From Oscillospiraceae bacterium (lineage in GTDB: Bacteria; Bacillota; Clostridia; Monoglobales; Monoglobaceae): a stretch of 64,000 nucleotides of DNA. The translations under genes were made by a program, and so were the position numbers. Under the pieces are notes generated by a model. That model did no database searches. It was not told the DNA's origin and saw nothing but the letters and a program-made list of their open reading frames with translations. This document shows, one piece after another, positions 1-58,145 of the stretch. How positions within the stretch are numbered: position 1 is the stretch's first letter; every line of letters starts with the position of its first letter. The stretch spans positions 1 to 64,000 of the forward strand of contig SVKC01000003.1 of assembly GCA_015068655.1 (NCBI GenBank), read 5' to 3'.

Positions 1-3
1 CAT

Positions 4-39
4 GAAAAAAGCGTACTGAAAATTCAGTACGCTTTTTTC
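4..39 (+). terminator. Terminator-like palindrome GAAAAAAGCGTACTGAAAATTCAGTACGCTTTTTTC
   Basis: Perfect stem with A-run and T-run; oriented with its adjacent repeat it is identical to the hairpin at 10441-10476. Confidence 0.8.
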
Positions 40-42
40 AAC

Positions 43-252
43 GATATAAATTCCTGACGGAATTTGCGATATACCTTCGGTACGATATATCCTGATGGAT
101 GCGATATGTTGCCTTGCGGCAACGAGAAAAAGGAATTTATATCATATCGCAACCGAATGAAATGAGGTTATATCGAATTTGCGAAGCAAATATATCGAAC
201 GAGCATGAGCGAGTATATCGCCAATAAAATAAAAATATCCTTATGGTTCGGC
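43..252 (+). repeat. Dispersed GATATA/hairpin repeat, copy 1 (core 43-143 plus extension to ~252)
   Basis: Core bounded by GATATAAATTCCT ... AGGAATTTATATC; related copies at 10338-10437, 57786-57995 and 58047-58145. Confidence 0.9.
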
Positions 253-8435: not shown

Positions 8436-8642
8436 AAAATAAAACCTAAAATGAAAAACTAAACGCAAGTCGGGATAAGGATGGTTTAAGAAAGTTCTTA
8501 AATAATAGTGATTTTTTGCTCAAAATAGTGTATAATGACATTAAAACTGTTGGATATACACTGTTTCGAAGCATAGCAAACAAGCAATGGTCAAAATTTT
8601 TATAAAATTAAATGAGACCCTTGCCTGATTGTGAATATGGCG

Positions 8643-9999
8643 TAGCTGTCTGACCTTTTAAATGGTTACTTTTTACGTTTTAATAGCTTTGGCTTCAAAC
8701 ACACTTCATCGAGTGGGATCGGAGAAAGTGCGAGTGTTTCCAACAGTTTTTTCTGTTCGTCAGTTTGCATCAGGTCAAATGGAGTATTGTTTTCGAAAAG
8801 CTCCCGTACAACACTGTTTACATGACAAATTATGAGATGAATATCTTCATCTTCCAAGGTGTTGAAATTAAAGCCTTTAGGTAAAACTTGCCTGAGGATA
8901 ACATGATTTTTCTCAATGCGACCTTTTTGCCATGAGGCTTGCGGATCGCAGTAAAAAACGCGTGTTCTTCTCGCTCCGTTTTCGGTATATTCAAGATGAT
9001 GAGAGCCTTTAAATTCCACACCATTGTCTGTGAGAATAACCGGAAACAGTTTACGGAAAGTATCCAGTCCCAGGTGCAATGTAAGTTTATCAAATACATC
9101 TTTAACGCTCTTTTGTGTGCCGTCAGGCATAAGAAAAACAAGCATAAAGTTTGTTTGACGGAAAATCATTGTAAGTAGCACCTTATGGCTGCCTCTGGCA
9201 CCTTTTACGGTATCCATTTCAACTACAGGAAGATTGGGATTCTGTTCCATAAATGAAGTAAAGTCGGTATAAGTGCGACCTTTTCGATATTGATAATCCA
9301 TTTTCATAACAACATCGTGCGGATGCCTTTGTCGATAACGAACTTTCTTTGGTAAATCGATATTTTTGATATGAAACGCATTCATATCAATGTAGTTGTA
9401 AATTGTCTTTTCTGAAAGCCCGATTTCATCTGCATGAGATGCAAAAATATGATTGATGGACTGACCTTTGTTGATAAGCGGTGCTAAAATATCGTTGATT
9501 TCCATAAGTCTTTCGGGATTGGTGCGAATACCTTTTCGGGACGTGCTTAATTCCTTGATATATTCTGCGTGAGCTCTGTGTGCGGTGTAATATGCGTGAT
9601 TTCGCCTGCAGGTCTTTTCTTCTGGGCAACAAGTACACACATAGGGCGGATTATCTAATAAAGGACAATGCAATGACAGATAATCGTGGCACAAATCATG
9701 GCAGGAATATTCAGTACAGGTTTTGCAGCGAGAAAAGCAAGTATACTTGCTTTCTGTATCACAAAGGTTACGCCTTAAACAAGTACGATAGTTGGCACAA
9801 TCATTATTGGTATAGACATTACCATTTACGAAACAACGATGATTTTTGACTTCTCTTGATATGGTTGTAGCACTTCTGTTAAGGTGTCTTGCTATGTAAG
9901 CAAATGACACATCAAGAGCCAAATATTTTTCGATAATAGCTCTGTCGGATAGTGTAAGATGTTTACTCATAGGTCTGCTCCTTTCCGGTCAGACAGCTA
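8643..9999 (-). mobile_element. IS30-family insertion sequence (putative inverted repeats TAGCTGTCTGACC)
   Basis: 13-bp perfect inverted repeats at 8643-8655 and 9987-9999 flank the transposase ORF; true element ends may lie further out. Confidence 0.7.
8666..9970 (-). CDS. IS30 family transposase
   Basis: MSKHLTLSDRAIIEKYLALDVSFAYIARHLNRSATTISREVKNHR; DDE region VVEMDTVKGARG...LTDNGVEFKG...KGRIEKNH. Confidence 0.97.
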   Translation of the reverse strand: MSKHLTLSDRAIIEKYLALDVSFAYIARHLNRSATTISREVKNHRCFVNGNVYTNNDCANYRTCLRRNLCDTESKYTCFSRCKTCTEYSCHDLCHDYLSLHCPLLDNPPYVCTCCPEEKTCRRNHAYYTAHRAHAEYIKELSTSRKGIRTNPERLMEINDILAPLINKGQSINHIFASHADEIGLSEKTIYNYIDMNAFHIKNIDLPKKVRYRQRHPHDVVMKMDYQYRKGRTYTDFTSFMEQNPNLPVVEMDTVKGARGSHKVLLTMIFRQTNFMLVFLMPDGTQKSVKDVFDKLTLHLGLDTFRKLFPVILTDNGVEFKGSHHLEYTENGARRTRVFYCDPQASWQKGRIEKNHVILRQVLPKGFNFNTLEDEDIHLIICHVNSVVRELFENNTPFDLMQTDEQKKLLETLALSPIPLDEVCLKPKLLKRKK

Positions 10000-10304: not shown

Positions 10305-10337
10305 AGGTAGTTTGAATTTGTTGCGTTGCGATATGAT

Positions 10338-10437
10338 GATATAAATTCCTTTATCTCGTTGCCGCAAGGCAACATATCGCATCGAAGATATATCGCGTAC
10401 GAAGTACATATAACAAATTCCGTCAGGAATTTATATC
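10338..10437 (-). repeat. Dispersed GATATA/hairpin repeat, copy 2 (inverted relative to copy 1)
   Basis: GATATAAATTCCT...AGGAATTTATATC; on the minus strand it follows a hairpin identical to that of copy 1. Confidence 0.9.
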
Positions 10438-10440
10438 GTT

Positions 10441-10476
10441 GAAAAAAGCGTACTGAATTTTCAGTACGCTTTTTTC
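10441..10476 (-). terminator. Terminator hairpin downstream of tRNA-Glu
   Basis: GAAAAAAGCGTACTGAATTTTCAGTACGCTTTTTTC immediately 3' of the tRNA. Confidence 0.88.
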
Positions 10477-10477
10477 A

Positions 10478-10552
10478 TGGTGACTCCTAGGGGATTCGAA
10501 CCCCTGTAGCCGCCGTGAGAGGGCGGAGTCTTAACCACTTGACCAAGGAGCC
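10478..10552 (-). tRNA. tRNA-Glu(CTC)
   Basis: Reverse complement GGCTCCTTGGTCAAGTGGTTAAGACTCCGCCCTCTCACGGCGGCTACAGGGGTTCGAATCCCCTAGGAGTCACCA folds as a cloverleaf; encoded CCA. Confidence 0.96.
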
Positions 10553-57665: not shown

Positions 57666-57740
57666 GCCTACATAGTTAAATGGATATAACAAGCCCCTCC
57701 TAAGGGCTAGTTGTAGGTTCGATTCCTACTGTGGGTGCCA
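57666..57740 (+). tRNA. tRNA-Arg(CCT)
   Basis: GCCTACATAGTTAAATGGATATAACAAGCCCCTCCTAAGGGCTAGTTGTAGGTTCGATTCCTACTGTGGGTGCCA; anticodon loop CTCCTAA; encoded CCA. Confidence 0.93.
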
Positions 57741-57782
57741 GAAAAAAAGACATTTTTCATTATTGAAAAATGTCTTTTTTTC
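57741..57782 (+). terminator. Terminator after tRNA-Arg
   Basis: GAAAAAAAGACATTTTTCATTATTGAAAAATGTCTTTTTTTC directly abuts CCA. Confidence 0.85.
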
Positions 57783-57785
57783 AAC

Positions 57786-57995
57786 GATATAAATTCCTGA
57801 CGGAATTTGCGATATACCTTCGGTACGATATATCCTGACGGATGCAATATGTTGCCTTACGGCAACGAGATTAAGGAATTTATATCATATCGCAACCGAA
57901 TGAAATGAGGTTATATCGAATTTGCGAAGCGAATATATCGCACGAGCGTGAGCGAGTATATCGCCAATAAAACTAAAATATCTTTATGGTTCTGC
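57786..57995 (+). repeat. Dispersed GATATA/hairpin repeat, copy 3 (core 57786-57886 plus extension)
   Basis: Near-identical to 43-252 including the extension through CTTTATGGTTC. Confidence 0.92.
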
Positions 57996-58002
57996 GTTCT
58001 TA

Positions 58003-58043
58003 GAAAAAAGACATTTTTCAATAATGAAAAATGTCTTTTTTTC
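58003..58043 (+). repeat. Second copy of the tRNA-Arg terminator hairpin, inverted
   Basis: Loop AATAAT here versus ATTATT at 57741-57782; otherwise same stem. Confidence 0.85.
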
Positions 58044-58046
58044 AAC

Positions 58047-58145
58047 GATATAAATTCCTGACGGAATTTGCGATATACCTTCGGTACGATATATCCTGAC
58101 GGATGCGATATGTTGCCTTACGGCAACGAGATTAAGGAATTTATA
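58047..58145 (+). repeat. Dispersed GATATA/hairpin repeat, copy 4 (core only, 3' end truncated)
   Basis: GATATAAATTCCTGACGGAATTTGCGATATACC...ATTAAGGAATTTATA. Confidence 0.92.

Follow-up and report, generated by a model that had tools for sequence, protein, structure and literature searches.

How has a short palindromic repeat, built of consecutive hairpins, come to be dispersed through a clostridial genome, and what moves it? The question is raised by the first bases of the 64,000-nucleotide stretch of DNA analysed here (the window). The preliminary description of this locus proposed a dispersed palindromic element, a reading that is supported here. Every feature it listed was recovered in position, namely the inverted repeats, the four short-loop hairpins, a TATATC half with the hairpin AATTTGC-gaa-GCAAAT, and the hairpin variants of a copy at 10338-10437. 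The window repeats are probably gene-less copies of a small mobile element that depends on a protein of the IVP/S23 family.

Anatomy and distribution of the hairpin arrays

The plus-strand array at 43-222 consists of four hairpins with GATATA spacers followed by three with TATATC spacers. TATATC is the reverse complement of GATATA, and the two halves of the array can pair with one another, as they do in the predicted fold. The left half of this copy (copy A) runs GATATA, AAATTCC-tgac-GGAATTT, GATATA, ACC-ttc-GGT, GATATA, ATCC-tgat-GGAT, GATATG, GTTGCC-ttgc-GGCAAC, AGGAATTTATATC. Four copies are present in the window, at 43-222 (+), 10338-10437 (-), 57786-57965 (+) and 58047-58145 (+), with only the left half at 10338-10437 and 58047-58145 (Table 1). 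A covariance model built from 32 cores recovers exactly these four in the window at E < 1e-17; on the opposite strand it gives weak matches at the same four places and otherwise noise. In addition to the array, the left hairpin (bases 4-39) and a tail (about 235-258) belong to the element, which corrects the first description.

The source genome (G000) is a rumen- or gut-type Clostridia metagenome-assembled genome (MAG) of 1.78 Mb in 70 contigs, 82% complete. It contains 17-18 copies (18 places by BLAST), several of them at contig ends. Window positions 1-127 are an assembly junction, with an exact overlap of 127 bases with the end of contig C8 and of 126 bases with the start of C57; the repeat breaks the assembly here, at the left edge of the window. 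The window also contains an IS30-type transposase gene (identified by eye; 8666-9970, minus strand) with imperfect end repeats near 8445 and 10096. It was considered as a mobiliser and rejected, since its ends do not match the element.

Table 1. Coordinates of array copies and adjoining host genes in the window.
Feature	Position	Strand	Remark
Copy A, H5 (5' hairpin), terminator-like AAAAAAGCGTACTGAA..TTCAGTACGCTTTTTT	4-39	+	Same H5 before the tRNA-Ser, tRNA-Glu and other genome copies
Copy A, left half: four hairpins, spacers GATATA/GATATG	43-143	+	Inner inverted repeat GATATAAATTCCT (43-55) / AGGAATTTATATC (131-143)
Copy A, right half, TATATC between hairpins	144-222	+	
Copy A, 3' tail ATATCCTTATGGTTCGGCTTTTTT	235-258 (start and end approximate)	+	T-form tail
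Copy B, right-half remnant ATCATATCGCAAC	10322-10337	-	Remainder missing; direct reading
Copy B, left half	10338-10437	-	Variant hairpins GTAC-ttc-GTAC and ATC-ttc-GAT
Copy B, H5 hairpin	10441-10476	-	Directly after tRNA-Glu
tRNA-Glu, host gene outside the element	10481-10552	-	Copy B inserted at its 3' end
tRNA-Arg, host gene	57666-57737	+	Copies C and D inserted at its 3' end
Copy C, H5, terminator-like hairpin	57741-57782	+	Directly after CCA
Copy C, left array half	57786-57886	+	
Copy C, right array half	57887-57965	+	
Copy C, tail ATATCTTTATGGTTCTGCGTTCTTA	57977-58002	+	
Copy D (tandem), H5 hairpin	58003-58043	+	
Copy D, left half only	58047-58145	+	

Folding and paired changes in the hairpin arms

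The 196-nt stretch folds as RNA about 4 SD below dinucleotide shuffles on either strand, and as DNA 5.8 SD below, which excludes a chance origin of the hairpin array. In every left-half hairpin tested, paired changes among the copies are more frequent than in shuffles. Across 31 copies, stems formed with an arm's own partner are longer than those formed with re-dealt partners at all four left-half hairpins (means of 6.3, 3.4, 3.6 and 5.1 versus 2.6, 0.9, 1.2 and 2.9 for hairpins 1-4; p <= 0.0005 each), in a test whose split point, picked for the best stem, somewhat favours the observed pairing. Alignment of the whole core with MAFFT misplaces hairpins 2-4, and covariation there was therefore tested hairpin by hairpin. 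Hairpin 1 has 16 cells with a change on both sides versus 3.9 in shuffles, and the inverted repeat GATATAAATTCC/GGAATTTATATC has 17 versus 3.9. The 5' arm of hairpin 1 has two alternative partners, and all three segments shift jointly (AAATTCC to AAATCTC, with GAGATTT twice).

The earlier claim that both arms change together thus holds beyond shuffles, but the example offered for it, the GTAC and ATC hairpins of the 10338 copy, looks different on comparison. These variants recur exactly or nearly in other species (L022, L040), and so look like swapped-in hairpins rather than a substitution pair that arose within G000. In L039 hairpins 2 and 3 stand in swapped order, and whole hairpins thus appear to be exchanged. 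The paired arm changes may stem from selection acting on the folded form or from template-switch repair at palindromes. The stems contain no significant surplus of G-T pairs relative to A-C mismatches (57 versus 48, p = 0.44, in a noisy test where most counted mismatches look like chance), and RNA as the selected form is therefore not supported.

Association with IVP/S23 genes

In several relatives the array leads straight into a small PF05635 gene, encoding the 23S rRNA-intervening-sequence protein (IVP/S23), alias four helix bundle protein TIGR02436. This orphan family has been known for decades from 23S rRNA intervening sequences, and IVP is not known to have catalytic activity. The window copies are without an IVP gene, and the sole PF05635 gene of G000 (C23:34132-34428; 81 bits versus a cut-off of 33.8) lies directly behind the array copy at C23:34536-34633. 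Survey of PF05635 genes in 20 genomes shows arrays upstream of nearly all, with spacer motifs that differ (GATATA, GCTAAATT, GTGATATT, TGAAAT, ATGAATT, CATAACT and a TTCACT type).

When named genomes were scanned with an IVP protein alignment, 80 loci emerged, ranked by similarity to the IVP of G000; nearly all carry the label Clostridia, Oscillospiraceae or close kin, and most come from MAGs. An array signature, defined as two or more occurrences of a motif followed by two or more of its reverse complement in the 400 nt before the gene, occurs just upstream of 74 of the 78 IVP genes with enough upstream sequence (95%). The corresponding figure is 12.5% for the 136 control stretches and 1.3% for shuffles. 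This linkage applies to IVPs near that of G000 and not to PF05635 overall. Reading by eye finds an array at 99 of 100 loci, L178 being the exception. Spacer motif and IVP protein family have diverged together: ten motifs mapped onto a tree of 93 IVPs require 9 changes, the minimum possible, versus a shuffled mean of 56.4. The array directly precedes the IVP start codon, and an additional role as an autoregulatory RNA leader is possible at this position.

Arrays outnumber their partner gene, with 17 per single IVP gene in G000 and 14 per one in G008. Among 38 genomes of the bacterial family, the GATATA array and an IVP gene occur together in nine, the array only in two, IVP only in six and neither in 21; G001 and G006, both incomplete MAGs, have arrays without any IVP. 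As for the protein itself, the relatives 2RLD and 2GSC were deposited with five chains, the homologous structures being uncharacterised, and a pentameric ring has been reported for a Xanthomonas member of the family (PMC4990558). An IVP protein also appears among the new associations of CRISPR adaptation modules in a large CRISPR survey (PMC10910872).

Several loci show further genes or repeats around IVP. Putative cargo genes lie directly behind it in L104, L105, L107, L108, L109, L110 and L123, encoding small membrane-like proteins, a kinase-like protein in L123 and, in L105, a product without a Pfam match. The human-gut phage record MT835815.1 (L225) includes a tRNA gene, a terminator, a GTGATATT array and an IVP gene. 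On a Treponema saccharophilum plasmid (L223), long runs of GGTGAAAGTGGAAAG-like repeats precede IVP, with CTCTCCGCTCTCC repeats on both flanks. A cyanobacterial IVP gene on Nostoc plasmid NZ_CP091914.1 (L224) is flanked by inverted repeats some 36 bp long, CAATGGACTAACGTCCCGCTCCGCTAACGCAATTCGCA, a case that may extend the association of IVP with inverted repeats to other phyla.

Insertion sites and element ends

Nearly every complete copy opens with the H5 hairpin, followed by AGC, GTC, ATC or AAC and then the array. Three classes of site are used, the CCA end of tRNA or tmRNA genes, the 3' end of rlmCD and the -10 box of sigma-70 promoters, and both H5 and tail vary with the target class. In the first class a terminator-like H5 begins within a few bases of CCA. 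Such copies lie in G000 behind tRNA-Arg (two), tRNA-Ser, tRNA-Thr, tRNA-Cys and tRNA-Glu. The tRNA-Glu site is empty in G003, G006, G017 and G016, where the terminator follows at once, and is occupied, by four array subtypes, in G000, G002, G022, G005, G008, G009, G004 and G007. The empty site of G016 reads CACCA-GTTAATCCCCCCGCAATCC-ttac-GGATTGTGGGG; the occupied site in the genus-mate G041 reads CACCA-[H5-array-...GGTTCTTCCA]-AAGAATCCCCGCAAAC-atta-CGGTTTGCGGGG, with a terminator resembling that of the empty site now to the right of the tail. At the tmRNA site of L169 a 12-nt direct repeat is seen, the tmRNA end TCATCTCCACCA recurring at the right end of the element, before a terminator. This is the only clear target-site duplication seen, and most tRNA sites show just CCA. 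A 24-nt match at L121 was considered as a further target duplication and discarded, as it looks like a second tRNA-Arg copy.

At rlmCD, elements are present in G000 (contig C3) and in G008, and the gene is intact in G003 and others; in genomes of the same genus, tRNA sites and this site are both seen without an element. The 5' arm of H5 here consists of host codons, the equivalents of GAGTGCTGTGTG in G003, and the element supplies CACACAGCACTC in G008. At six other rlmCD loci the supplied 3' arm pairs over 14.2 bp with its own host's codons versus 4.9 bp with those of swapped hosts. The array in the rlmCD 3' end of G000 itself (C3:40084-40324; L018, L206) is degenerate, and a transporter-like gene occupies the IVP position.

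Promoter-class copies have H5 starting 1 nt after TATAAT (or TAGAAT/TACAAT). In 21 of 28 candidates a TTG lies exactly 17 nt upstream of the -10 box, and no candidate has one at a different spacing; four of the remaining candidates lie behind the TATAAT-like tail end of another element, and the others look like chance matches to the pattern. Because the stretch from -35 to -10 varies between copies and H5 does not, the promoter is probably the host's. A flank search gave no clean empty site for a promoter-class copy, the flanks being rearranged in relatives. Tails likewise differ: GGTTCTGCTTTCCCA-type tails are found in 8 of 10 array-only copies with a terminator H5, and tails ending in TATAAT or similar in 9 of 11 promoter copies versus 0 of 10 terminator-H5 copies (p = 0.0002). 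The TATAAT of the tail could be a fixed end of the element rather than a duplication.

Chains of elements, some of mixed subtype (an ATGAATT array next to a GATATA array), are seen in the upstream flank of L008 and in L025, L031 and L108, each element inserted behind the TATAAT-like tail end of the preceding one. TTCACT-type arrays at L083 (tRNA-Glu of G004) and L261 (G041) have an internal stretch resembling the neighbouring terminator; in L083 the reverse complement of GTGTACGGATTTTTGG reads as the tRNA CCA plus the 5' arm of the terminator, as if it were a stored copy of the target or a guide.

A putative IVP-dependent mobile element

Arrays and IVP together point to an undescribed family of small mobile elements. 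The full element would comprise H5, a symmetrical array (spacer S, then its reverse complement), the IVP gene, sometimes a cargo gene, and a short tail. IVP would recognise its own array through spacer and hairpins and be needed for movement, and array-only copies, such as those of the window, would move in trans. Insertion would be site-selective, after the CCA of a tRNA or tmRNA, at the rlmCD 3' end or one base past a sigma-70 -10 box, with an H5 and a tail suited to each class. IVP would bring the ends of the element together, and a host enzyme would join them at open or hairpin-prone DNA, for example a transcription bubble or a gene end. The anatomy, the linkage to IVP, the co-divergence of motif and protein, the copy numbers, the occupied and empty sites, and the site classes are direct observations. 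That IVP binds the array and is needed for movement is inferred from them. A chemical step carried out on DNA by a host enzyme has slightly less than an even chance in our estimation; a chemical step by an RNA route, with a reverse transcriptase acting in trans, is unlikely. A broader reading, in which IVP/S23 is the dedicated factor of an unrecognised superfamily whose clades each move their own array, and array-only copies in trans, to the starts and ends of transcription units, is tentative and on balance somewhat doubtful.

Other explanations share part of this evidence. The arrays might be a structured RNA, an autoregulatory leader of IVP and elsewhere a small RNA as in the Gut-1 annotation, whose copies are kept for an RNA function. 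The RNA fold is stable, promoter-class copies would be transcribed, given their start 1 nt past a -10 box and the -35 spaced at 17 nt, and Gut-1 was deemed a certain RNA by its discoverers (PMC2864571). However, most copies in G000 are not followed by an IVP gene and many come after a terminator-like hairpin, the stems show no G-U excess and fold equally well on both strands, and site occupancy differs among close relatives, all of which make an RNA function a decidedly unlikely reason for their retention. Ordinary MITE- or REP-like repeats moved in trans by an IS transposase (IS30, IS200/Y1 or other), with IVP as merely frequent cargo, would also be small, numerous and provided with inner inverted repeats, and an IS30-type transposase is at hand in the window. 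Its end repeats are, however, no better matched than shuffles (14/26 versus a mean of 14.4), and near-perfect co-divergence of spacer and IVP clade is unexpected for cargo. The TnpA_REP or Y1 enzyme suggested at the outset as a partner is not supported either: Y1 (PF01797) is represented in G000 by one broken fragment only and is absent from several array-rich relatives, none being found in G008, G009, G017 or G030. Mobilisation by an IS transposase is thus hardly credible.

The 3' ends of tRNA, tmRNA and conserved genes are classic integrase sites, and their use here, together with the 12-nt identity at the tmRNA site and tails that end in a short target-like sequence (CCA or TATAAT), would suit a site-specific cassette whose circular form is joined to its sites by a host or phage tyrosine recombinase, with IVP as an accessory architectural protein. 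No recombinase gene was recognised in the elements read, however, nor were conserved core-type inverted repeats around the junctions, and such a cassette is distinctly improbable. Movement via RNA, with an Avd-like role for IVP and a reverse transcriptase in trans, draws on the resemblance of PF05635 proteins to Avd, the accessory protein that diversity-generating retroelements (DGRs) require for retrohoming (PMC10053308), and on insertion at transcript starts and ends. Against this very unlikely route, a search for reverse transcriptase (PF00078) found none in G000 (82% complete) nor in most array-bearing relatives, the RT domain being absent from G000, G002, G005, G006, G008, G009, G017, G022 and G030, all incomplete MAGs. 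Within the limits of such assemblies, the absence of RT and of an intact Y1 argues against a retroelement or a REP/RAYT system, and movement dependent on IVP is the preferred reading.

Relation to Gut-1 and other known systems

The repeat was first described as belonging to no recognised family, and at the Rfam cut-offs, including the gathering score of 50 bits for Gut-1 (RF01706), the window copies indeed have no match. The arrays are nonetheless not without known relatives, as a sister subtype includes Gut-1 and the partner is an IVP/S23 gene. In 2010 Gut-1 was classed as a certain RNA, from human gut only and not cis-regulatory (PMC2864571). Sister copies of the window subtype score 24-37 bits against it, and TGAAAT-spaced arrays upstream of IVP pass the cut-off (L149, L152, L182, L185, L188, L199 and L201; 66-81 bits). 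The TGAAGT-spaced array L150 scores 52 bits, just above the cut-off of 50; L193 falls below it. The match covers the left array half; in L188 the right half matches too, on the other strand. By sequence comparison, Gut-1 is the left array half of the TGAAAT-spaced subtype. Both have hairpins parted by a fixed short spacer (three, with UGAAAU, in Gut-1), whereas the spacers of the window subtype are GATATA, and the Rfam model spans half an array and takes in neither the mirror half nor the IVP gene nor the insertion sites. This makes the window repeat a new subtype within a class catalogued so far as one half of one subtype, and as an RNA.

No paper connecting IVP genes with hairpin arrays, with Gut-1 or with insertion at tRNA ends or promoters was found in the open-access literature. 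Two orphans, the IVP/S23 family and the Gut-1 motif, are brought together in a single class of elements, one that is common in gut Clostridia. If true, the superfamily reading would explain orphan PF05635, orphan Gut-1 and the 23S rRNA intervening sequences together, and the elements would represent a route of transposition without a known transposase or reverse transcriptase of their own. Co-divergence of protein and motif makes the role of IVP testable by binding to matched and mismatched arrays, and the strict choice of tRNA ends and -10 boxes marks the elements as a possible source of new 5' leaders and terminators.

Among known systems, MITEs are likewise short, non-coding, multi-copy and palindromic, but the outer ends of the array elements, H5 and tail, do not form an inverted-repeat pair, and no end-matched transposase was found (the window IS30 being the one compared). 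DGRs provide Avd, which resembles PF05635 proteins (PMC10053308); they differ in that no reverse transcriptase was found in G000 and template and variable repeats were not noticed. REP/REPIN sequences with their RAYT enzymes are also dispersed palindromic repeats with a tag motif that matches the protein clade, and in both cases a dedicated protein would act in trans. The array partner, unlike RAYT, is a four-helix-bundle protein rather than a Y1 enzyme, and the array elements have many hairpins per copy and target tRNA ends and promoters. The nearest known kind is the 23S rRNA intervening sequence with an S23 ORF, long suspected of being selfish and for which mobility via the ORF product has been suggested (PMC4990558). 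The array elements insert at tRNA/tmRNA ends, rlmCD and promoters rather than inside 23S rRNA (the loci scanned gave no rRNA match that would indicate insertion in a 23S rRNA helix), and differ further in their multi-hairpin arrays and many gene-less copies. With the intervening sequences of Coxiella and Leptospira they nevertheless share the protein family, insertion at RNA genes or structured places, and complementary ends.
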